From Bacteroidales bacterium (GTDB lineage: Bacteria > Bacteroidota > Bacteroidia > Bacteroidales > WRLA01), in NCBI GenBank assembly GCA_031254805.1, contig JAIRTP010000020.1:1-35759 (forward strand): a stretch of DNA of 35,759 bases. Reading direction: 5' to 3'. Shown piece after piece: positions 3-29,337 of this stretch. The notes beneath the pieces were generated by a model, which saw nothing but the letters and a program-made list of their open reading frames with translations, had not been told where the DNA came from and ran no database searches. Both the position numbers and the translations under genes were made by a program. The stretch's first letter is position 1; the number at the start of each line of letters is the position of its first letter.

Positions 3-101
3 GTAGAACCAACCTTTGAAGAATTCATGTCGGGAAAGGATATGGATTTGGAAATAGCAATTAAAGAGATAAAAGAGCAAATAAAAAGAAATAAAAAATA
101 A
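3..101 (+). CDS. C-terminal end of an upstream protein (partial)
   Basis: An open frame enters from the left edge and stops at TAA 99-101, giving the last 32 residues of a protein. The visible tail contains PTFEEFMSGKDMDLEIAI followed by a lysine-rich end. A short acidic stretch, then GKD and an amphipathic helix with LE.AI, resembles the C-terminal end of S41-family (tail-specific protease or tricorn-like) peptidases. That resemblance is weak, because only the tail is visible and no catalytic residue is present. The same frame stays open from 102 to 245, but the next gene has its own signal peptide starting at 246, so I treat the two as separate. Confidence 0.45.
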   Translation, partial: VEPTFEEFMSGKDMDLEIAIKEIKEQIKRNKK

Positions 102-245: not shown

Positions 246-1649
246 ATGAAAAAAATATTCATTTTACTTTTAATGACATATAATATAGTCATTTTTTCTC
301 AAAATACAGATAAGATACCTTGTAAATTGGAGGTTGAGATTGTCCCTTTTGAGAAGATTGATACGACTCGGATATTTCCTTTTTTCAATAATATCAGTAA
401 GATTAAACAAACGCTTAATCTGAAAAATTATTCAAAAGATACGATTTATCTCCCCTTGGAAAACCCATCGCAATTTAGCTTTATGAATCCATTTCTTTTT
501 CAGCACATAAAAGTAACGGCTGTAAAAAATAAAAAGAAAAGAGAAATCCCCTCTGTTTTTCAGAACAATATGTTGCAATTTTTGCTTTCCGAAAAGGATG
601 AGATTGTTGAAATAGACTACTATTATCAAACTGATTATTTTATGAAAGGACATGAATATATTACATGTTATTTCTGCCCCACTCAGCACTCTTGGTTTTC
701 TTGGTATTTTTCAGTTCCAAATATGATTATCGAAAAAGTATCTTTTTCTGTCCCTGATAATACTTATTTATTGGCAAATCTTCCTCAACAAAAAAAATCT
801 TCTTATGTTGAATTACAATGCGATACCATTCCACCTCATGGAATTTCTTATTTTTTGATGGAGAAACGTCATTATGATAAAATTCCAACTACAATTCATA
901 ATAATCAATATAATCTTTATCTCTTTAAAGATATTATAGCCACTGGAGATTCTTCATCTCTCGAAGCATTTTGTCTTTCCGATAATAAAAATACGCCCGA
1001 AGTCATTGAGAAGAGAATCAGCTCTCTTGAAAGAGGATTAAAAGGAATTCATAAGCTTTTTAATCAACAGATTGATGTTGATATTGTAGATGCATGTCTT
1101 GATTTATCTCAAGGCGGGAATAAAATTTATTGGGGTTCGGCTTTTATGTCGTCAGATAATCATGGTTTGGTTGTAATGGATACAAGTTTTTGGAATACGC
1201 ACAGTTGTACGCATGAATTGGTGCATTTTCATAATAGAATTTTACCGAATAAAGACGATTCTTCCTATTATTTTTTTCATGAGTCGATGACGGAATTCTT
1301 ATCCGTTCAATTTTTTTATTCCGACGTCGTCCTTAAGGATTCTGTTTATCAGGAAAAAATATTGAAATACGTCCATATTGAAAATGACTGCCATTCTATC
1401 TTTGATGTTACTAAAAATGAAGTTGGTCTTGATTTGAGCGGCAGCTACGGCGTAATTTATCTTAAAACTCCTTTTGTACTTCATTGTTTGGAAAAGAAGA
1501 TCGGAGAGGAAAAATTCATGAAGATTTTATCATCTTTTTATCGCCGGGTGAAAGAGAGCGGAAACATTAGCTTTTCATTGATGGAACAAGTATTTAAGGA
1601 AAGCGGCATATCAGACGCCGTTTGGGAATGGTTTTTAGAAAATCTGTAA
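246..1649 (+). CDS. Secreted M1-like (gluzincin) metallopeptidase, divergent
   Basis: This 467-residue protein starts with a clear signal peptide (MKKIFILLLMTYNIVIFSQ, cleavage near residue 19-20, no lipobox), so it should act in the periplasm or outside the cell. The zinc site is complete: HELVH at 323-327, then exactly 18 residues, then E346 in FFHESMTEFLS, the HExxH-x18-E arrangement of family M1. Downstream, YGVIYLKTPFVLHCLEKKIG (401-420) aligns with the M1 stretch carrying the catalytic tyrosine, which would be Y405. The first 220 residues look beta-rich, as expected for the N-terminal domain. I see no GAMEN exopeptidase motif, so substrate type is open. It stands alone: 144 bp from the gene before and 196 bp from the next. 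The start at 246 is supported by the signal peptide. Overall similarity to M1 outside the motifs appears low. Confidence 0.7.
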   Translation: MKKIFILLLMTYNIVIFSQNTDKIPCKLEVEIVPFEKIDTTRIFPFFNNISKIKQTLNLKNYSKDTIYLPLENPSQFSFMNPFLFQHIKVTAVKNKKKREIPSVFQNNMLQFLLSEKDEIVEIDYYYQTDYFMKGHEYITCYFCPTQHSWFSWYFSVPNMIIEKVSFSVPDNTYLLANLPQQKKSSYVELQCDTIPPHGISYFLMEKRHYDKIPTTIHNNQYNLYLFKDIIATGDSSSLEAFCLSDNKNTPEVIEKRISSLERGLKGIHKLFNQQIDVDIVDACLDLSQGGNKIYWGSAFMSSDNHGLVVMDTSFWNTHSCTHELVHFHNRILPNKDDSSYYFFHESMTEFLSVQFFYSDVVLKDSVYQEKILKYVHIENDCHSIFDVTKNEVGLDLSGSYGVIYLKTPFVLHCLEKKIGEEKFMKILSSFYRRVKESGNISFSLMEQVFKESGISDAVWEWFLENL

Positions 1650-20384: not shown

Positions 20385-21629
20385 ATGGACAGGGAAATTT
20401 CCAAAAGCGTTCGCAGAAAAGAGGCTCGAAAACGAGTTTTAAAATATGCCGCAATTTTATTGGCTGTAATTTTGATCATCGCCGTCCTCATGAACCTTTT
20501 GAGGAGCGTTCTCTCCATGAAAAATATTATTGTGGGAACGGTCGACAACGGAACGTTGGAGGTCACGGTCAACGCTTCCGGAAAAGTTACGCCTCTGATA
20601 GAAGAGATCATCGTCTCGCCGATCAATTCGCGTATCGTAGAGGTGTATAAGAATCTCGGCGACGCGCTAAAAACCGGAGAACCGATTTTGCAATTGGAAT
20701 TATCTTCTGTCGAGACCGAATACAAACAAAAATTGGACGAGAGAGAAATAAAAAAGAGTAAACTGGCTCAATTGAGAATCAATTTGGAAAACGCGCTTTC
20801 CGAATTACAGATGCAGCAGAGCGTGAAAGAGATGCAACTCCGCCAACTTTATACCGAACTCCAAAACGAAAAATATTTGGATAGCATCGGCGCCAGCGCT
20901 TTCGACAAAGTGCGCCAGATATCGTTGAATTATGAAGTCGCAAAATTGGAATTAGAACAACTAAAACAACAGATTGAGAATCAGAAAGCCAATGCCGAAG
21001 CGGAACTCAAAGTATGGCAATTGGACTTGAACATTTTTGAAAAATCATTAGCGGAAAGTGAACGTTTGTTAAAGAATGCACGTATTTTATCTCCCCAAAA
21101 TGCTACGTTGACTTTTGTTAATAATCAGCTCGGTTCTCAAGTAGCGGCCGGTTCCCAGGTTGCCATTGTCTCCGACTTGAGCCGTTTTAAGATTGAGGCT
21201 GAAATAGCGGGAAGTTATGCCGATAGAGTACGCGTCGGATCGAAAGTGATCGTTAAGACAGGAATGTTCAAATTAACGGGAACGGCCGTGAATATTACGC
21301 CTTCGGTAAAAAACGGAACAATCTCTTTTATAGTTATTTTGGACGATCCGGAAAATGCTCAATTGAGAAGCGGCCTTAAAACCGACGTACATGTTAATTA
21401 CGGTATTAAAGATAATATTTTGAGAATACCGAACTCCTCTTATTATATTGGAAAAGGGAATTATGAGCTGTGGGTAATCAACGGAAATATGGCGGAAAAA
21501 CGAAAAGTACAATTAGGAGAGAGTAGTTTTGAGTATGTGGAAGTTGTCGGCGGGCTTCAGAAAGGAGAACAAGTGATCCTTTCTGATATGAGCCAGCATA
21601 AAAATAAGCAAAGGATAAAAATCAGATAG
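20385..21629 (+). CDS. Periplasmic adaptor (membrane fusion) subunit, HlyD/MacA type
   Basis: The 414-residue protein has a basic cytoplasmic start, one membrane helix at about 20-41 (YAAILLAVILIIAVLMNLLR) and a periplasmic adaptor. The first half-lipoyl strand region follows (GTLEVTVNASGKVTPL), then a long alpha hairpin of about 125 residues (115-240), the second lipoyl half with SPQNATLTFVNNQLGSQVAA, and a beta-barrel with RVRVGSKVIVKTG and LRSGLKTDVHVNYG. Such adaptors join an inner membrane ABC pump to a TolC-type channel. The order adaptor-ATPase-permeases-channel here supports a complete tripartite exporter. It is the first gene behind the candidate sigma-54 promoter. Confidence 0.92.
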   Translation: MDREISKSVRRKEARKRVLKYAAILLAVILIIAVLMNLLRSVLSMKNIIVGTVDNGTLEVTVNASGKVTPLIEEIIVSPINSRIVEVYKNLGDALKTGEPILQLELSSVETEYKQKLDEREIKKSKLAQLRINLENALSELQMQQSVKEMQLRQLYTELQNEKYLDSIGASAFDKVRQISLNYEVAKLELEQLKQQIENQKANAEAELKVWQLDLNIFEKSLAESERLLKNARILSPQNATLTFVNNQLGSQVAAGSQVAIVSDLSRFKIEAEIAGSYADRVRVGSKVIVKTGMFKLTGTAVNITPSVKNGTISFIVILDDPENAQLRSGLKTDVHVNYGIKDNILRIPNSSYYIGKGNYELWVINGNMAEKRKVQLGESSFEYVEVVGGLQKGEQVILSDMSQHKNKQRIKIR

Positions 21630-21677
21630 AGAGAATATAAGTACGACGAGAAGCAATAATTAAATAATTTTAAAAGT

Positions 21678-22343
21678 ATGTCAATCATTAAATTAGAGGG
21701 CATAGCCAAAATATACCGAACCAAAGAGGTAGAAACATTAGCATTGGAAAATGTAAATCTGGAGGTAGCAAAGGGAGAATTTATTTCCGTTATGGGACCT
21801 TCGGGTTGCGGAAAAAGTACGCTTTTGAATATCATTGGCTTACTTGATGAGCCGACGTCGGGAAAAGTGTGCATTGACGAAACGGAGACCGAAAATATGA
21901 AAGACGCCGAGTTGGCAAATTTCCGCAATAAAACATTAGGATTTGTCTTTCAAAGTTTTCATTTGGTTAATTCTCTGAATGTTTTGGATAACGTAGAATT
22001 GCCGTTGCTCTACCGTAAACATGTAAAAAATCGTACGGAAAAAGCAAAAGCGGTATTAGAACGTGTCGGATTATCGCACAGAATGAAGCATTTTCCGTCG
22101 CAACTTTCCGGCGGACAATGCCAAAGAGTCGCCATCGCAAGGGCCTTGATCGGCAATCCGAAGATCATTCTCGCCGATGAGCCGACCGGTAATCTCGACA
22201 GTAAAATGGGAGCCGAAATCATCGAACTCTTGCATGAGTTAAACAACGAAGGAACGACCATCGTGATGGTAACGCACGACGAGCATATTGCCAAAACAAC
22301 GCGTCGTATCATTCGCTTCTTTGATGGAAGAAGGATTGAGTGA
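21678..22343 (+). CDS. ABC transporter ATPase, LolD/MacB type
   Basis: The 221-residue ATPase has all the motifs: Walker A GPSGCGKS (40-47), Q-loop Q92 in FVFQSFHLVNSLN, signature LSGGQCQR (143-150), Walker B ILADE (164-168) with the following PTGNLDS, and the switch histidine H200 in VMVTHDE. FQSFHLVNSLNVLDNVELPL is the typical LolD/MacB subgroup sequence. The signature has C in place of the more usual Q at its sixth position. It should power the two following FtsX-like permeases. It lies 48 nt after the adaptor and 48 nt before the first permease. Confidence 0.95.
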   Translation: MSIIKLEGIAKIYRTKEVETLALENVNLEVAKGEFISVMGPSGCGKSTLLNIIGLLDEPTSGKVCIDETETENMKDAELANFRNKTLGFVFQSFHLVNSLNVLDNVELPLLYRKHVKNRTEKAKAVLERVGLSHRMKHFPSQLSGGQCQRVAIARALIGNPKIILADEPTGNLDSKMGAEIIELLHELNNEGTTIVMVTHDEHIAKTTRRIIRFFDGRRIE

Positions 22344-22391
22344 GTTGAAAATCAGAAATTGAAGATGAAATAGTTTTGAAATCAAACAATT

Positions 22392-23639
22392 ATGTACAAA
22401 ATATATTTAAAACAAGCCTTTCAAATGTTGAAACAGAATAAGTTCGTTTCGGCAATTTCGATTATCGGAACAGCGTTGGCTATCATGATGGTGATGGTAA
22501 TCATCGTTACCGATCAAATAAAAACCAATAATATTGCGCCTGAGATAAATCGGAATAATAGCTTTTATCTTAAATACCATATTGAGAAATCCAAAGAAGA
22601 GGAAAATAGCTACAGCAGCGGTTGCGTTACTTACAATGTATATAAAAATTACCTTTCGGATGTTAAGTCGTATGATATGGCTACACTTTTCACTCCGGTT
22701 TGGAGCGATGAAAAATATATTATCCATGTCAATGAAAGTAAGATCAGACGTTTCGAACCGGTTCGACTATGCGATGCCGATTACTGGAAAGTTATGTCTT
22801 TCGATTTTGTCGAAGGGCGACCTTTCAATCAAATCGAATTTAACGACGGACTAAATAATGCTGTTCTTTCGGAGCGATTGGCAAAGGAACTGTTTGGAAA
22901 AGAATCTGCTTTGGATAAGACGGTTTATATTTTCAAACAACTGTATAAAGTGATAGGAGTTGTTAAAGATGTTTCCCAAACTTTTGAGTTTGCCTATTCG
23001 GAAGTTTGGGCGCCGTACACTACCGTCCCGAATTTCGAAGAAGAGGGGTACCATGCCATTTATGTTATAGATGATAAAGACAAAAGATCTCTTTTTTACG
23101 AAGAAATGAGAGATGTGGAAAGAAAATACAATGCAAATGAAGATTGGAATTTAACCTTACAAGGTCCATATAATCACCGTTTGCAAATGGGTGCATCATA
23201 CAGCAATGTAAAACCTGAGTTTGTTTTGATTATACTAAAATATGTCTTTATCATCGCTATCTTGCTTGTTATTCCCGCTATTAATTTATCAAGTTTTAGC
23301 ATTTCGGCAGTTAAAAAACGAACGGAAGAGATTGGTATCAGGAAAGCTTTCGGAGCGAGAAATAAAAGTATTTTGTTGCAAGTACTGTACGAAAATCTTT
23401 TTACAGCTATCATCGGCGGGTTTATAGGGCTTATTTTGTCGTATTTTACAGTGATTTGGCTTAAGGAATGGCTTTTCAATGTAACTACCGGCGATTCTAT
23501 TCCGCTCGTAGCTTTTGTGTCGCCGGCCGTATTTTTGTATGTTTTTTTGGTATGCGTTCTGTTAAACTTGATATCATCCATAGTTCCGGCATATAAAGCG
23601 TCAAAAATGAATATTGTATTATCACTTAACCAAAAATAA
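22392..23639 (+). CDS. ABC transporter permease, FtsX/MacB type (first)
   Basis: This 415-residue protein has the MacB-like layout. One helix lies at the N terminus (FVSAISIIGTALAIMMVMVIIV, about 18-39), then a periplasmic MacB-type domain (about 40-275), then three helices. The FtsX core motif is FSISAVKKRTEEIGIRKAFGARNKSILLQ, here given as the stretch around 306-334. The end is ISSIVPAYKASKMNIVLSL. The ATPase is a separate protein, unlike in MacB. It is eight bases from the second permease, and the two are quite different, so they probably form a heterodimer. Such pumps act mechanically on periplasmic substrates; the substrate is unknown. Confidence 0.9.
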   Translation: MYKIYLKQAFQMLKQNKFVSAISIIGTALAIMMVMVIIVTDQIKTNNIAPEINRNNSFYLKYHIEKSKEEENSYSSGCVTYNVYKNYLSDVKSYDMATLFTPVWSDEKYIIHVNESKIRRFEPVRLCDADYWKVMSFDFVEGRPFNQIEFNDGLNNAVLSERLAKELFGKESALDKTVYIFKQLYKVIGVVKDVSQTFEFAYSEVWAPYTTVPNFEEEGYHAIYVIDDKDKRSLFYEEMRDVERKYNANEDWNLTLQGPYNHRLQMGASYSNVKPEFVLIILKYVFIIAILLVIPAINLSSFSISAVKKRTEEIGIRKAFGARNKSILLQVLYENLFTAIIGGFIGLILSYFTVIWLKEWLFNVTTGDSIPLVAFVSPAVFLYVFLVCVLLNLISSIVPAYKASKMNIVLSLNQK

Positions 23640-23647
23640 TTTATAAT

Positions 23648-24961
23648 ATGCTAAAACATCTTTTTAAAATAATATGGACGGAACGCAAGGTAAACGCTTG
23701 GATTCTTGTAGAACTTATCTTAGCGTTCGCAATACTTTGGTTTTGTTGTGATTACTTGCTTTACTCAACGCAAAAATTATTAGAACCAAAAGGTTTTAAT
23801 ACCGAGCATACTTATATAATTGATATTTGGAACGAAGACGAAGGCTTATTTGAAGATATTGATTATGAAGAGATGGAAGAAGAAGAGTTTAATGTTGGGT
23901 ATACAAACGCCCGTACGATAGTCTCAAATTGGAGTGATGCAATATGGGAAATTTATGATAGAATTAAGCGTCATCCGGCTGTAGAACATGCAAGCTTATC
24001 GCTTTATGCAACTCCTTATGCCGGTTCATATGCTGGAAATACCTTTTGGTTTGATTCTATTTCATTCGGCGCTCAAATAAAAAAAGTCACGCCTGAATTT
24101 TTTGATGTTTATCAAATAGACATTTTAAAGGGTCGAAAGTTTAATGAAACGGATGATATTACGGAAAATAATATCATAATAAGCGGCGCCCAAGATAATA
24201 TTTATAAAAAAATAAACTTTTTGCAGATTGACACATTGCTTAGTTATAGAAAAGAAAGTAAATATAATGTAATAGGCGTTGCCGAACCGACAAAACGATT
24301 AGAGTTTGAAAATTATACGCCGGCCGTATATCTTTATTTGAGTAAAAGCGATGAGCAACTCATTGGAGAATTATCTTCTTTCTTTAGGGAATTTAGCGTT
24401 AGAGTAAAACCGGAAGCTGATAAAAATTTTGCCGAGTCATTTTTAAATGACATGCAAAGTCAATTGGAGATTGAACCCTTCTTTCTTGCCTCGGTTATAC
24501 CACTAAAAGACAGACGTTCAGAATATATGCAAATTGGCGAATACAGTAATGGATTTAAAAGTATCTATTCCATTTCAGCGTTTTTAATAATAAACATCGT
24601 TCTTTGCGTGATGGGAACTTTTTGGCTTCGTATACAATCGCGCCGCTCTAATATTGGATTGCGTATGGCTTTAGGCGCGTCAAAAAGGTCTATACAGGTA
24701 TTTTTTCTTGTAGAAACGCTTTTATTGTTGTTTTTGGCAAGCATTGTAGCATTCTTGTTATGTATCAATATCAATGAAATATTATCAGAGATATTAAAAG
24801 AAATAGAATTGCCGATAATTGGCAGAAGCGAATTTGGCGCGTATATCTCCAATTATCTTATAACATTCTTTATCATGGCAATAATTGCAGCGCTTTCCGT
24901 ATGGTATCCTGCGAAGAAAGCGTCCGATATCCAACCGGTTGAAGCGTTGAGGGAGGAATAG
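23648..24961 (+). CDS. ABC transporter permease, FtsX/MacB type (second)
   Basis: The 437-residue protein has the same layout as its neighbour but little sequence likeness. There is a first helix at about 17-38 (WILVELILAFAILWFCCDYL) and a periplasmic domain with an unusually acidic start (DIWNEDEGLFEDIDYEEMEE, residues 59-78). Three C-terminal helices follow around RSNIGLRMALGASKRSIQVF, ending WYPAKKASDIQPVEALREE, which is the classic FtsX-permease end. It should pair with the first permease. A short low-complexity AATTGAGA-like spacer separates it from the channel gene. Confidence 0.9.
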   Translation: MLKHLFKIIWTERKVNAWILVELILAFAILWFCCDYLLYSTQKLLEPKGFNTEHTYIIDIWNEDEGLFEDIDYEEMEEEEFNVGYTNARTIVSNWSDAIWEIYDRIKRHPAVEHASLSLYATPYAGSYAGNTFWFDSISFGAQIKKVTPEFFDVYQIDILKGRKFNETDDITENNIIISGAQDNIYKKINFLQIDTLLSYRKESKYNVIGVAEPTKRLEFENYTPAVYLYLSKSDEQLIGELSSFFREFSVRVKPEADKNFAESFLNDMQSQLEIEPFFLASVIPLKDRRSEYMQIGEYSNGFKSIYSISAFLIINIVLCVMGTFWLRIQSRRSNIGLRMALGASKRSIQVFFLVETLLLLFLASIVAFLLCININEILSEILKEIELPIIGRSEFGAYISNYLITFFIMAIIAALSVWYPAKKASDIQPVEALREE

Positions 24962-25056
24962 AAGAGAATTGAGAATGAGAAATTAAAAATAGGGAATTGG
25001 GTGTGGAAAAAAATCTTGAAATTTTTGAATCGCTTGTAACTTATATTTATAAATCT

Positions 25057-26580
25057 ATGATGCAAATATCTTTTAATCTTTCGTTTTTCATCTTTCGGCT
25101 GTCGCGATGTTATGTTTTTGCATTTTTATGCTTGTCTGTTGTTTTGCTTAACGCTCAGGATACGTTAGTTTTGAATCTGAATGACGCCATACAGCGAAGT
25201 ATTTCCAATTCTGTCGATGCTGTTGTCGCTAAAAATGAATATAAATCGAGTTATTGGAGTTATCGAACATATAAAGCGGAGTTACTTCCCGAATTGGCTT
25301 TTGACGTCATGCTTCCTTATTATTCCAAATCGTACAACTCTTATCAAAATGAAGACGGCAGTTATACTTTTGTCGAGAACGATTACAGCATTTTGGATGC
25401 GGGATTATCCATTTCGCAGAATATTCCCTTTACCGGCGGCGTAATTTCAATAGAAAGCAGTTTGGAACGATTGCAACAATATGGAGAAAACGGGTCGAAG
25501 AATTTTATGGCGGCGCCTTTTTCAATTACTTTGGAGCAGCCGCTCAATGGATATAATCGTATTCGCTGGTTACAGAGAATAGAGCCGGTGAAGTATAAAG
25601 AAGCAGAACAAAAGTTGGTCGCCGACATGGAAGATGTCGCTCATCAGGCTATTCAATATTATTTTAACCTTTTGCTAGGCCAGATTAATTTAGAAATAGC
25701 CGAACAAAACCTGAAAAATTCGGAGAAAATATACGCTATTGCTGAAGCAAAACGGAAAATAGGACAAATATCGGAGAACGATCTGTTGCAACTCGGAGTT
25801 TCTTTATTGAAGGCGGAGTCATATATGACCGATGCGCAAGCTTCGTTTGCAGCAAGAATGTTCCAACTGCGCTCTTTTCTCGGATATGGAGAAGAGACGG
25901 TTTTGAAACCGATCATTCCGGAGCTTTTTGCTGAAGAAATTCCCCGGTTGGATTATTATGAAACGTTGACATTGGCGAATGAAAATAATGCATTTACCCA
26001 AAATATTCAACGGCGATTGTTGGAAACGTCGCACGATGTAAGCCAAGCTAAGGCTGATCGTTGGGAAGCCTCTTTGTTTCTCTCTTTTGGGATGTCAAAT
26101 CAAGATCAACTTTTTACAGAGATTTATCATATTGATAATTGGCGCGATCATCAAATCGTCAATTTAGGCATTCGCGCTCCGATCGTGGATTGGGGCAAAA
26201 AAAAGGGAAAAGTGAAAATTGCCGAAGCCAATCGCGAAGTGGTAACTTCCCGGATCGAAAAAGAGAAAATTGATTTTAATCAGACGATCTTTCTGACGGT
26301 ACAAAATTTCAACAATCAATCCAAGCAACTATTATTGGCTAAAGAAACTGACGAAATCGCTCAAAAACGTTATCAAACCTCGATCGAAGCATTTATTTTA
26401 GGTAAAATAGACGTTTTAAACCTAAACGACGCGCAATCCTCTAAAGATGAAGCAAGGCGCAACTATATTGAGCAAATGTTCTATTTATGGTCTTATTATT
26501 ATCAAATACGGGCGTTAACATTGTATGATTTTGTCAATGGAAAAGAGTTGACCGTCGCGCATGAAGATTATCTGCAATAA
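25057..26580 (+). CDS. TolC-type outer membrane channel of the exporter
   Basis: I take the ATG at 25057 (507 residues); the frame is open back to a TTG at 24997, but MMQISFNLSFFIF to CLSVVLLNAQ gives a good signal peptide from 25057 (25060 is equally possible). The mature protein has the two-repeat outer membrane efflux pattern: IAEAKRKIGQISENDLLQLG and, near the end, RYQTSIEAFILGKIDVLNLN, each with a long coiled coil. A GG turn (IPFTGGVISIESSLERLQQY) and the following beta-rich part fit the barrel. It completes the tripartite pump encoded by the four genes before it. Confidence 0.9.
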   Translation: MMQISFNLSFFIFRLSRCYVFAFLCLSVVLLNAQDTLVLNLNDAIQRSISNSVDAVVAKNEYKSSYWSYRTYKAELLPELAFDVMLPYYSKSYNSYQNEDGSYTFVENDYSILDAGLSISQNIPFTGGVISIESSLERLQQYGENGSKNFMAAPFSITLEQPLNGYNRIRWLQRIEPVKYKEAEQKLVADMEDVAHQAIQYYFNLLLGQINLEIAEQNLKNSEKIYAIAEAKRKIGQISENDLLQLGVSLLKAESYMTDAQASFAARMFQLRSFLGYGEETVLKPIIPELFAEEIPRLDYYETLTLANENNAFTQNIQRRLLETSHDVSQAKADRWEASLFLSFGMSNQDQLFTEIYHIDNWRDHQIVNLGIRAPIVDWGKKKGKVKIAEANREVVTSRIEKEKIDFNQTIFLTVQNFNNQSKQLLLAKETDEIAQKRYQTSIEAFILGKIDVLNLNDAQSSKDEARRNYIEQMFYLWSYYYQIRALTLYDFVNGKELTVAHEDYLQ

Positions 26581-26625
26581 AGCGATAACGTTGTGAAGAG
26601 ATGTCAAGGCGTTTTATTAATTTCT

Positions 26626-26633
26626 TATATTTG
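26626..26633 (+). promoter_or_regulatory. -7 promoter box of the response regulator gene (TATATTTG)
   Basis: TATATTTG is an exact TAnnTTTG match whose last base lies five bases before the ATG at 26639. Transcription would begin at or next to the start codon, so the mRNA could be leaderless. No TTTG is present at the -33 position. Confidence 0.45.
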
Positions 26634-26638
26634 CATGA

Positions 26639-28006
26639 ATGAGTAGAGAGAAAAAATTGATTTTGGTTTGTGATGATGACGCGGCGGTAAGATCTTCATT
26701 GAGTTTGGTATTGCATCGAGCGGATTATGACGTGGCAACAGTTGCTACGCCGACTGAAGCTATTGATTTTGTGAAGAAAACAGAGCCGCACCTCATACTG
26801 ATGGATATGAATTACGGTCAAAGCGCAAGCGGCGAAGAGGGACTTATTTTACTACGTCAAGTGAAAATATTTCGCCCTGATACGCCTGTTATTTTGATTA
26901 CGGCATGGGGTTCTATATCTTTGGCAGTAAAAGGAATACAAGCGGGATCCTTTGATTTTATTACAAAACCGTGGAACAACTTAACGCTATTAAAGTCCAT
27001 TGAAACAGCCATTCAGCTTAACCACGAAAATCGATCGCATAATGTGTTGTCGGATAAAGAGATGCATTACAATAAAATCGTGGGTAAATCGCCTCTTTTA
27101 TTAAATATATTCAACACGATCGAACGGATTGCCAAGACGAATGCTCCGGTATTGATCATAGGAGAAAGCGGAACGGGAAAAGAGTTGATCGCAGAAGCTA
27201 TTCATGAAAACAGTAACCGGCGAAATAAACCTTTTGTAAAGGTCAACTTAGGCGGAATTTCTCAATCGCTCTTTGAAAGCGAGATGTTTGGGCATAAAAA
27301 GGGAGCTTTCACGGATGCGCATTACGACCGGATCGGGCGTTTTGAAATGGCGAATAAAGGAACGATATTTTTGGACGAAATTGGCGATTTGGATTTGTCG
27401 TCGCAGGTAAAATTATTACGTGTTTTACAAGACCAGACTTTTGAATCGTTGGGAGACAGCCGTCCAAAACAAGTTGATGTGCGGGTTATCAGCGCAACCA
27501 ATCGCAATCTTGGCGAGATGGTCATAAAAGGAGCTTTTCGAGAAGATCTGTTTTATCGTATCAATTTGATTACCATTCGCGTTCCGGCATTGCGTGAACG
27601 TTTAGAGGATATTCCGCTTTTGGCAAATTTTTTTGCTAAAAAACAAGCGGATATTAATAAACAGGGAAAGATAGAACTCTCCCCAGACGCTATTTCATTT
27701 CTCAAAAGCCTGCTTTATCCCGGAAATATACGGGAATTGAAAAATCTGATCGACAGAACAATTTTAGTTTCGGGAAAAAATATATTGACGGAAGCTGATT
27801 TTAAGGAACAATATAATAGTATTCCTCACAACTCGGAAATCCTTTCCGATTCTATTTATCCTTTGGAAGAGCTTGAAAAAAGCATGATCGTCAAGGCGAT
27901 GGAGCTATATGGCGGAAATTTGTCAAAAGTGGCGACAGCTTTGGGGTTGACAAGGCAATCGTTGTATCGAAGGTTGGAAAAATATGGAATAACAATAGAA
28001 AATTGA
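26639..28006 (+). CDS. Sigma-54-dependent response regulator (NtrC family)
   Basis: This 455-residue protein has three domains. The receiver (1-125) has the acidic pair D12/D13, phospho-acceptor D56 in LILMDMNYG, T88 and K110. The AAA+ sigma-54 activation domain (about 145-375) has Walker A GESGTGK (175-181), the sigma-54 contact loop GAFTDA (222-227, consensus GAFTGA), and Walker B TIFLDE. The Fis-type helix-turn-helix at the end is GNLSKVATALGLTRQSLYRR. It should bind an upstream site as an oligomer and activate sigma-54 promoters, with the exporter genes just upstream the obvious candidates. The start is fixed because ILVCDDD begins at residue 8. The stop overlaps the start of the kinase gene. 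Confidence 0.95.
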   Translation: MSREKKLILVCDDDAAVRSSLSLVLHRADYDVATVATPTEAIDFVKKTEPHLILMDMNYGQSASGEEGLILLRQVKIFRPDTPVILITAWGSISLAVKGIQAGSFDFITKPWNNLTLLKSIETAIQLNHENRSHNVLSDKEMHYNKIVGKSPLLLNIFNTIERIAKTNAPVLIIGESGTGKELIAEAIHENSNRRNKPFVKVNLGGISQSLFESEMFGHKKGAFTDAHYDRIGRFEMANKGTIFLDEIGDLDLSSQVKLLRVLQDQTFESLGDSRPKQVDVRVISATNRNLGEMVIKGAFREDLFYRINLITIRVPALRERLEDIPLLANFFAKKQADINKQGKIELSPDAISFLKSLLYPGNIRELKNLIDRTILVSGKNILTEADFKEQYNSIPHNSEILSDSIYPLEELEKSMIVKAMELYGGNLSKVATALGLTRQSLYRRLEKYGITIEN

Positions 28007-29337
28007 AAAATTGTTCATTAATTGTGAAATCAAAAATACTTTTCTGGATATTGGCCTTATTGGTGTTTGGTTCGTTGACAGTCGGCGGATTTCTTTTTAT
28101 CAAAACCGATATTTATAAATTTCTTCTTATTGAATGTATTGCCATTCTCGCCATTATATTTTTTGTTGTATTGTATATCAGACTTATAAAGCCGTACCAA
28201 ATTATATCTTCGGGGATGGATTTGATTAAAGAACAAGATTTTTCGAGCCGATTGCGTCTTATCGCTAATAGCGAAGCCAACAAATTGATAGAGATTTTCA
28301 ACAAAATGATGGAGCAATTGCGCGATGAACGATTACAAGTGAGGGAGAAAAATAGATTTTTAGATCTACTTATCAAGGCTTCTCCACAAGGCGTTATTAT
28401 TCTTGATTTTGATAATAATATCTCCGAGATCAATCCCGCGGGGCTTAGGTTGTTAAATATCTCTGATATTAATTTGGTTAAAGGCAAACAAATTCGAGAT
28501 TCGGGAATTCCAATAGCAGAAGCGTTGGCGTCAATACATTCTGACGAAGACGCCATTATCCGAGGAATGGGAATTGTCATGTATCGTTGCTCGCGTTCTT
28601 CATTTTTAGATCGAGGCTTTGCGCATCCTTTTATTCTTATCGAAGAGCTGACTCATGAACTGCTTAAAACGGAAAAAAAATCCTACGAAGGCGTTATACG
28701 AATGATGGCTCACGAAGTGAATAACTCTGTCGCCGCTATTAGCTCCACTTTGAATGTTATTTCCGATATCTTAAAACAAGATGAAGAAAATAAGTTGAAC
28801 GATGTGCTTCCTGCTGTTGACGCTTCTTTTGATCGTTGCCGGCATTTGAGTTCTTTCATCAGCAATTTCTCCGAAGTGGTAAAGATTCCTAAACCTATGC
28901 TTTCGGTCGTCAAAATTAATGACTTGGCGCATTCTGTGGAGGCTTTGACCGTTATAGAACTTCAAAAAAGGAATATACGAATGCATTTAGAACTTTCTCC
29001 CGATCAGCCGGAAGAAAATCTTGACAGAATACAACTTGAGCAAGTTCTTGTCAATATTGTAAAAAACGCATACGAGGCTATTGAAGAGAATGGAGATATT
29101 AAAATTGCGACGCATTCCGCGCCCTTATCAATTTCTATTTCAAATAACGGTCCGGAAATATCCGACGAAGTAATGCAAAAACTTTTCACGCCGTTTTTTA
29201 CTACAAAGTCTTCCGGACAAGGTATCGGTTTGATGTTTGTGCGTGAAGTATTATTGAATCATTCATTTAAGTTCGACTTGAAAACTAAAGACGGATGGAC
29301 GACCTTTAATATCTTTTTTGGAGATAAAAGAAGTTAA
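28003..29337 (+). CDS. Sensor histidine kinase, short-loop (intramembrane-sensing) type
   Basis: No ATG is available before the first helix. A TTG at 28003 overlaps the regulator stop (TTGA), and a GTG at 28024 is an alternative. Two helices (about 12-33 and 40-62) enclose only about six residues outside, so there is no periplasmic sensor domain. A HAMP-like linker, a PAS-like domain (ASPQGVIILDFDNNISEINP, 126-145) and the kinase core follow: H237 in RMMAHEVNNSVAAIS, N box with N351/N355, and G2 GQGIGL. The G1 box reads NNGPE where DxGxG is usual. The kinase pairs with the preceding regulator; signals are likely sensed within the membrane, possibly through the exporter. Confidence 0.92.
   Translation: MKNCSLIVKSKILFWILALLVFGSLTVGGFLFIKTDIYKFLLIECIAILAIIFFVVLYIRLIKPYQIISSGMDLIKEQDFSSRLRLIANSEANKLIEIFNKMMEQLRDERLQVREKNRFLDLLIKASPQGVIILDFDNNISEINPAGLRLLNISDINLVKGKQIRDSGIPIAEALASIHSDEDAIIRGMGIVMYRCSRSSFLDRGFAHPFILIEELTHELLKTEKKSYEGVIRMMAHEVNNSVAAISSTLNVISDILKQDEENKLNDVLPAVDASFDRCRHLSSFISNFSEVVKIPKPMLSVVKINDLAHSVEALTVIELQKRNIRMHLELSPDQPEENLDRIQLEQVLVNIVKNAYEAIEENGDIKIATHSAPLSISISNNGPEISDEVMQKLFTPFFTTKSSGQGIGLMFVREVLLNHSFKFDLKTKDGWTTFNIFFGDKRS

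Follow-up and report, generated by a model that had tools for sequence, protein, structure and literature searches.

The window, i.e., the whole 35,759-nucleotide stretch of Bacteroidales DNA analysed here, encodes close to its start a protein, P0001, that is very probably a zinc peptidase of the M1 fold, as judged from its predicted structure, and that probably helps to mature (or to destroy) a chemically cross-linked peptide. The reading frame, at positions 246..1649 of the + strand with an ATG at 246 and a stop codon ending at 1649, was identified as that of an M1-like secreted zinc peptidase from its translation, its profile match to M1 proteins and the fold of its catalytic domain; the product of 467 amino acids belongs to a distinct clade of ten members, all from Bacteroidales (P0001 itself, L012, L013, L014, L015, L029, L048, L049, L050 and L061). 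In all likelihood, this clade is linked to peptides modified by radical-SAM enzymes (RiPPs). A role in the maturation of such peptides is well supported for the clade; for the P0001 copy we infer it, because the contig starts 245 bases upstream of the gene and the genome yielded no cognate maturase when searched.

Predicted zinc site and fold of P0001

The initial annotation had read a complete M1-type zinc site in this protein, and the motif is present as claimed. HELVH at residues 323-327 (1212..1226, + strand), which contains the predicted zinc ligands H323 and H327 and the predicted general base E324, is followed after 18 residues by E346 (1281..1283, +), the predicted third zinc ligand from sequence and alignment, so that P0001 has the HEXXH-X18-E arrangement typical of M1. 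Sequence, alignment and profile comparison point to Y405 (1458..1460, +) as the catalytic tyrosine; it lies in YLKTPFVLHCLEKKIGEEKF, in the M1 tyrosine region where it had been placed, and the Y-x-K-G signature of M1 is recognizable there, with T in place of G in P0001. All five residues (H323, E324, H327, E346 and Y405) are conserved without exception in a nine-member alignment of P0001 with eight sequences that share 25-31% identity with it. Because the catalytic residues are invariant across such a divergent clade, the motif is beyond chance, and a fortuitous HELVH/E/Y set was ruled out. Altogether, 13 columns are invariant in the nine members, namely, G297, D312, H323, E324, H327, F343, E346, E350, S384, Y405, P409, H413 and F431. 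The tenth member, L061, which is outside this alignment, keeps HEILH-X18-E and YYKTP and carries, as seen by eye, Y where the others have H413. Across the ten members, the spacing between HEXXH and the glutamate is 18 residues in six, including P0001, and 17 in four.

The protein is short and lacks GAMEN, as initially described, and a GAMEN-like motif is missing from all ten clade members, as well as from four short M1-like proteins outside the clade; the longer Bacteroidota M1 proteins recovered by the same searches all carry GGMEN or GGMET (4 of 4). In M1 aminopeptidases, this motif holds the N-terminus of the substrate, its glutamate binding the free N-terminus. Because this glutamate is missing, P0001 is, on sequence grounds, more likely to be an endopeptidase or a specialised trimmer than a general aminopeptidase; the loss of GAMEN does not prove that aminopeptidase activity is lost.

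The Pfam Peptidase_M1 profile (PF01433) alone, the check proposed with the annotation, stays below threshold, with 14.3 bits for P0001 against a gathering cut-off of 27.7; in the rest of the clade it gives 21.9 in L013 and is unlisted for L012, L015, L029:8001-9422 and L061. The comparison of profiles, by contrast, supports M1: hhalign of the nine clade members against eight M1-like proteins yields a probability of 98.8 and an E-value of 1.2e-16 over 383 columns, and pairs HEXXH, the glutamate and the tyrosine. NCBIfam gave no match to P0001, and neither did PADLOC, so a defence-system identity was rejected; Pfam matches of P0001 to an F-box beta-propeller and to UPRTase were below the cut-off and were dismissed.

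With a mean pLDDT of 52, the full-length model is of poor quality; nonetheless, M1 enzymes head both its Foldseek and its VIA-align matches, and the M61 entries 8j9c and 7xyo come after the first M1 entries in the Foldseek ranking. For the M1-like catalytic domain, residues 235-467 (948..1646, +; AlphaFold2 and VIA-align), the AlphaFold2 model built from a five-sequence alignment reached a pLDDT of 78.5 and a pTM of 0.81, with ten-residue blocks at pLDDT 88-94 over domain residues 81 to 140, which contain HEXXH and the glutamate. This model has three matches with E <0.001, all of them to the two-domain M1 enzyme of Deinococcus, and VIA-align gave a Z of 16.1 (rmsd 3.2-3.3, 191 residues) for the Deinococcus entries 6a8z/6koy, followed by leukotriene A4 hydrolase with a Z of 15.8, where Z differences under 1 are ties. 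A match to the designed zinc cage 9k8i (E 0.0016) was set aside, since it covers a short helical stretch of 50 residues and scores 20 bits. Because of the profile comparison (E 1e-16) and the confident catalytic-domain model, we place P0001 in the M1 fold; no unrelated family scores above the cut-off, and the catalytic domain of the predicted model adopts the M1 fold, in agreement with the earlier view of P0001 as a divergent M1-type gluzincin. The two-domain M1 enzyme of Deinococcus radiodurans (6a8z and related entries) resembles P0001 in size (429-436-residue chains), catalytic-domain fold and type of zinc site, but the two are only 12-14% identical, and the RiPP neighbourhood is seen only in the P0001 clade.

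Secretion had also been proposed, and about the first 19 residues (MKKIFILLLMTYNIVIFSQ; 246..302, +) resemble a signal peptide when the translation is read by eye, so that P0001 looks like a protein exported via Sec. Residues 20-234 (303..947, +) form a putative beta-rich N-terminal domain, mostly at low confidence in the full-length model, and a weak full-length alignment of P0001 to the two-domain M1 enzyme begins at residue 49. We claim no fold for this domain, because the full-length model is too poor outside the catalytic domain.

Distribution and gene neighbourhoods of the clade

The search with P0001 alone matched 6 of 393 Bacteroidales genomes at E 1e-6, and a nine-row profile matched 8 of the 393 at 1e-12. 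Since the tree puts G028 and G372 outside the clade, six clade members are left in 393 Bacteroidales genomes, a rare and patchy distribution. Matches were found in 5 of 268 genomes in the family of G213, in 1 of 6 in the family of G214, and in 4 of 395 genomes in a scan of the phylum, three of the four being outside the clade. Proteins that the tree places outside the clade were not counted (L002 of G028, L062 of G372, L025 of G507, L026 of G530 and L027 of G542). A scan of bacteria and archaea (genome_contigs) with one degenerate motif identified three loci, all in Bacteroidales, i.e., Candidatus Colimorpha pelethequi, which was added, a Tidjanibacter MAG (G114) and a Bacteroidales MAG (G362); a scan of genome_contigs with P0001 as the single query found no relative, and viral contigs gave no match to the motif pattern. 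Restriction to Bacteroidota, as first suggested, thus holds within the searched scope, in which the motif scan was the sole productive one across bacteria and archaea.

In a tree of 17 catalytic segments, the split between nine clade members and eight other M1-like proteins has a support of 99/97, and P0001 is paired with L029 with support 90/92; the finer branching order is unsure because several branches are long. L048, nearly the same as L049, was omitted from this tree, and the weak matches L003, L004 and L007, where HEXXH proteins are present, were left out. It should be noted that the frame of L014/L030 (366-1779, a Bacteroidales MAG) is broken, with stops inside the match, which could be due to decay or to an assembly error.

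Intact triads of a precursor, a radical SAM/SPASM maturase and the M1-like gene were found in L013, L015 and L061, with the peptidase starting either 36 bases after the end of the maturase or 20-23 bases inside it. In L013, a GG-leader peptide with 7 Cys in the core and a radical SAM/SPASM gene are followed, 36 bases further, by the M1-like gene, and a truncated lanB (N-terminal fragment) lies upstream. L015 contains a GG-leader peptide (7 Cys), the maturase and an M1-like gene overlapping it by 20 bases, and then a truncated C39 gene and, by eye, transposase-like genes. The smallest cassette is that of L061 (8025-11079), which consists of a GG-leader peptide (5 Cys), the maturase and an M1-like gene overlapping the maturase by 23 bases, with no transporter in the stretch examined. 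In L029, a 73-residue SPASM fragment directly precedes the M1-like gene. The three full maturases share 32-35% identity among themselves and 23-24% with a second maturase of L013, and the L029 fragment has 47, 40 and 28% identity to the three over 54-58 residues; by these identities, the four maturases, including the L029 remnant, are one group. The best NCBIfam model for the maturases (L013 and L015 tested) is PapB, the ranthipeptide maturase, below its cut-off, and no pseudo-rSAM was seen in these triads.

An intact triad is therefore present in 3 of the 10 members and a maturase remnant beside the gene in 1 of the 10, which are raw counts with no random-gene baseline; a maturase or its remnant is adjacent in 4 of the 8 members whose upstream neighbour is on the contig, L048 and L014 beginning at contig edges. 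No maturase was seen near the M1-like gene of L012, which is directly followed by an S41 protein, or beside that of L049, which is directly preceded by a response regulator and a kinase, and no RiPP gene was seen around that of L050.

C39 genes share the locus with the peptidase in L013 and L015, and DUF4932 genes with HEXXH occur near two members, L013 and L029. Beyond the M1-like gene of L013 (10995-14770), a second Cys-rich GG-leader peptide, a DUF4932 protein with HEFCH, another maturase and, at the contig end, the beginning of a C39 transporter make up a neighbouring RiPP unit with a putative metallopeptidase of its own. In L029 (4273-11116), three different HEXXH proteins lie within 7 kb, namely, the DUF4932 protein, the clade member and, after it, a second short M1-like protein.

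The window contig and its genome

The window is one entire contig (C71 of an assembly with 96.8% completeness), and therefore the sequence upstream of base 1 is unreadable; the peptidase gene starts after 245 bases, which have a GC content of 25.3%. The gene itself has a GC content of 31.8%, the lowest among the 27 CDS examined in the window (34.9-46.3% in the others). Upstream of it, positions 3..101 (+) encode the C-terminal tail of a gene (32 aa and a stop codon), the rest of which is off the contig. This tail aligns without gaps to the C-terminus of an S41 protein from its own genome (G000:C54) over 32 residues with a score of 43, which none of 1000 shuffles reached (maximum 42), but it does not match the S41 protein of L012; we keep its assignment to the S41 family of peptidases tentative because only one of the two comparisons supports it.

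No precursor or maturase is present on the window contig, and no cognate, i.e., L013-type, maturase was found in the assembled genome, where the two SPASM hits, on C95 (TIGR04148-like) and C89, are not of this type. Two TIGR04150 pseudo-rSAM genes occur elsewhere in the genome, together with C39 ABC genes, one of which directly follows an S41 tail; at a contig end there is also the C-terminal part of a TIGR04148 maturase. These GG-Bacteroidales RiPP genes are at L037 (G000:C104, 10809-14266), L038 (G000:C95, 9771-11429) and L036 (G000:C54, 1-2522), and several of them are near, or cut by, contig ends.

Neither of the two congeners searched has a match to the peptidase. Both keep the downstream BFN gene, which, as seen by eye, lies beside apparently the same nucleoside transporter, and the genes on the other side differ; in the congener G001 (L063, 2857-4181), a different small gene lies beside the BFN gene, where the window has the peptidase. 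As it was not found in the congeners and the flank is kept on one side, the peptidase gene seems to be accessory and to occupy a variable position. Further along the window, at 20385-29337, genes for HlyD, an ABC ATPase, two MacB/FtsX permeases, an outer-membrane efflux protein, a sigma-54 response regulator and a histidine kinase follow in a row; the regulator and the kinase are related to the pair before the M1-like gene of L049, with 38% and 27% identity, respectively.

Proposed role and competing explanations

The motif, the predicted fold, the clade and the neighbourhoods suggest a pathway in which the activity, substrate and location of the enzyme and the order of the steps are to be read conditionally. 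P0001 would be a zinc peptidase with two domains and an M1 fold, exported via Sec, in which H323, H327 and E346 would hold the zinc ion, E324 would activate the water molecule and Y405 would stabilise the transition state; the recurrent partners of the clade are a PapB-like radical-SAM/SPASM maturase and a Cys-rich precursor with a GG leader. In the cytoplasm, the maturase would introduce cross-links into the Cys-rich core; a C39 transporter would then cut the leader off at GG and export the core, which the M1-like peptidase would finally cut or trim outside the cytoplasm. The annotation had supposed a different substrate, for which this RiPP cassette offers a concrete candidate.

The clade has the M1 fold and a link to RiPP maturation in common with AplP and EryP, the M1 peptidases of class III lanthipeptides, whose hosts belong to a phylum other than that of P0001; EryP is among the Foldseek matches of P0001 (7v9o, E 1.8e-3). 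However, the EryP chain has 860 residues compared to 467 in P0001, the peptide class of AplP/EryP differs, and the P0001 clade, unlike these enzymes, is tied to radical-SAM maturases and GG leaders. In the accessible part of PMC10885120, AplP (M1) removes the leader and then trims, and MfuP (M61) cuts inside the cross-linked core after the C39 transporter acts. To the extent described there, MfuP and the proposed P0001 system follow the same gluzincin and C39 logic, i.e., removal of the GG leader and then a metal-dependent cut in the core, but MfuP belongs to the M61 family and acts on a class II lanthipeptide in Myxococcus; the M61 structure 7xyo from M. fulvus is a moderate Foldseek match to P0001 (E 5.9e-4).

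Stool-metagenome LanB clusters contain radical SAM, S41 peptidase and DUF4932 genes (PMC5410138, accessible part), and of these genes L013 carries radical SAM and DUF4932 together with a fragment of lanB, L029 carries DUF4932 and L012 carries S41; that part of the source names no M1-like component. The GG-Bacteroidales system (TIGR04148/TIGR04150), genes of which occur elsewhere in the window genome, has the GG leader, radical SAM and C39 in common with the clade cassettes, but the clade maturases (L013 and L015 tested) are closest to PapB, below every listed cut-off, and the triads show no pseudo-rSAM. C39 transporters are linked to GG-leader precursors in Bacteroidales RiPPs in the portion of PMC10352776 that was available, a paper in which "M1 family", "metallo" and "DUF4932" each occur 0 times, and PMC8939145 mentions, for some graspetide loci, metallopeptidase clusters of unspecified kind. 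In the open-licence PMC literature, as far as its accessible text goes, we found no description of M1-like genes adjacent to radical-SAM RiPP genes of Bacteroidales.

As a whole, the best explanation is that P0001 acts in the maturation of a radical-SAM-modified peptide, to which we assign about an even chance. Biosynthesis is favoured mainly by the genetic coupling of the peptidase to a single maturase group, and the pairing of P0001 in the tree with L029, whose upstream neighbour is a SPASM fragment, also speaks for this role; the S41-like tail in place of a maturase upstream of P0001 and the maturase-free L012, L049 and L050 speak against it, as does the failure to find a precursor or maturase on the contig, or an L013-type maturase in a genome assembled to 96.8% completeness. 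The two-component neighbours of L049 and the maturase-free members leave room for self-protection or general proteolysis. P0001 could be a general secreted peptidase for nutrient or envelope proteolysis, with the RiPP link confined to a sub-branch that excludes it: general aminopeptidases are frequent among M1 enzymes, neither the contig nor the genome assembly shows a maturase of the appropriate type, and L012, L048 (as far as its contig shows), L049 and L050 have no visible maturase. Against this reading, P0001 groups with the bearer of a maturase remnant, the clade is rare and patchy and was not found in either congener, and the GC content of the gene is the lowest among the window CDS examined; we consider it unlikely, yet a serious contender. 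Self-protection, in which the secreted peptidase would degrade a modified peptide (its own or that of a competitor) outside the cytoplasm, is equally compatible with the location and the neighbours; the relatedness of the L049 regulator/kinase to the window pair that follows a MacAB-like efflux operon would agree with it, and the maturase-free members would fit a resistance gene travelling alone. That the peptidase is closely coupled, in three loci, to a single group of maturases points to biosynthesis instead; we rate self-protection as unlikely.

Decay is visible among the relatives, in the broken frame of L014, the SPASM fragment of L029, the truncated C39 gene and transposase-like genes of L015 and the truncated lanB of L013, and the contig ends on the upstream side of the peptidase gene. 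P0001 might accordingly be what is left of a cassette that decayed or was transferred in part, catalytically competent but without a substrate, which seems improbable with its frame intact and all invariant residues kept. Even less credible is an M1-fold protein with a non-peptidase activity, for which the missing substrate-binding motif GAMEN could be cited, since all catalytic residues are invariant.

The preferred reading, i.e., maturation of a radical-SAM-modified peptide that the P0001 copy may still serve, can be taken tentatively one step further: the clade might mark an unnamed class of Bacteroidales RiPPs, defined by a Cys-rich precursor with a GG leader, a dedicated group of PapB-like radical-SAM/SPASM maturases and a co-inherited, secreted M1-like peptidase of two domains, lacking GAMEN, that would cut the cross-linked core endoproteolytically after C39 export. 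Bacteroidales RiPPs are common in genomes, and few products are known. A secreted peptidase linked to a maturase marks a specific, testable cassette, and it may supply the missing final step for such peptides in a heterologous host. The clade would thereby extend the M1 fold, best known from aminopeptidases, towards the processing of cross-linked peptides.
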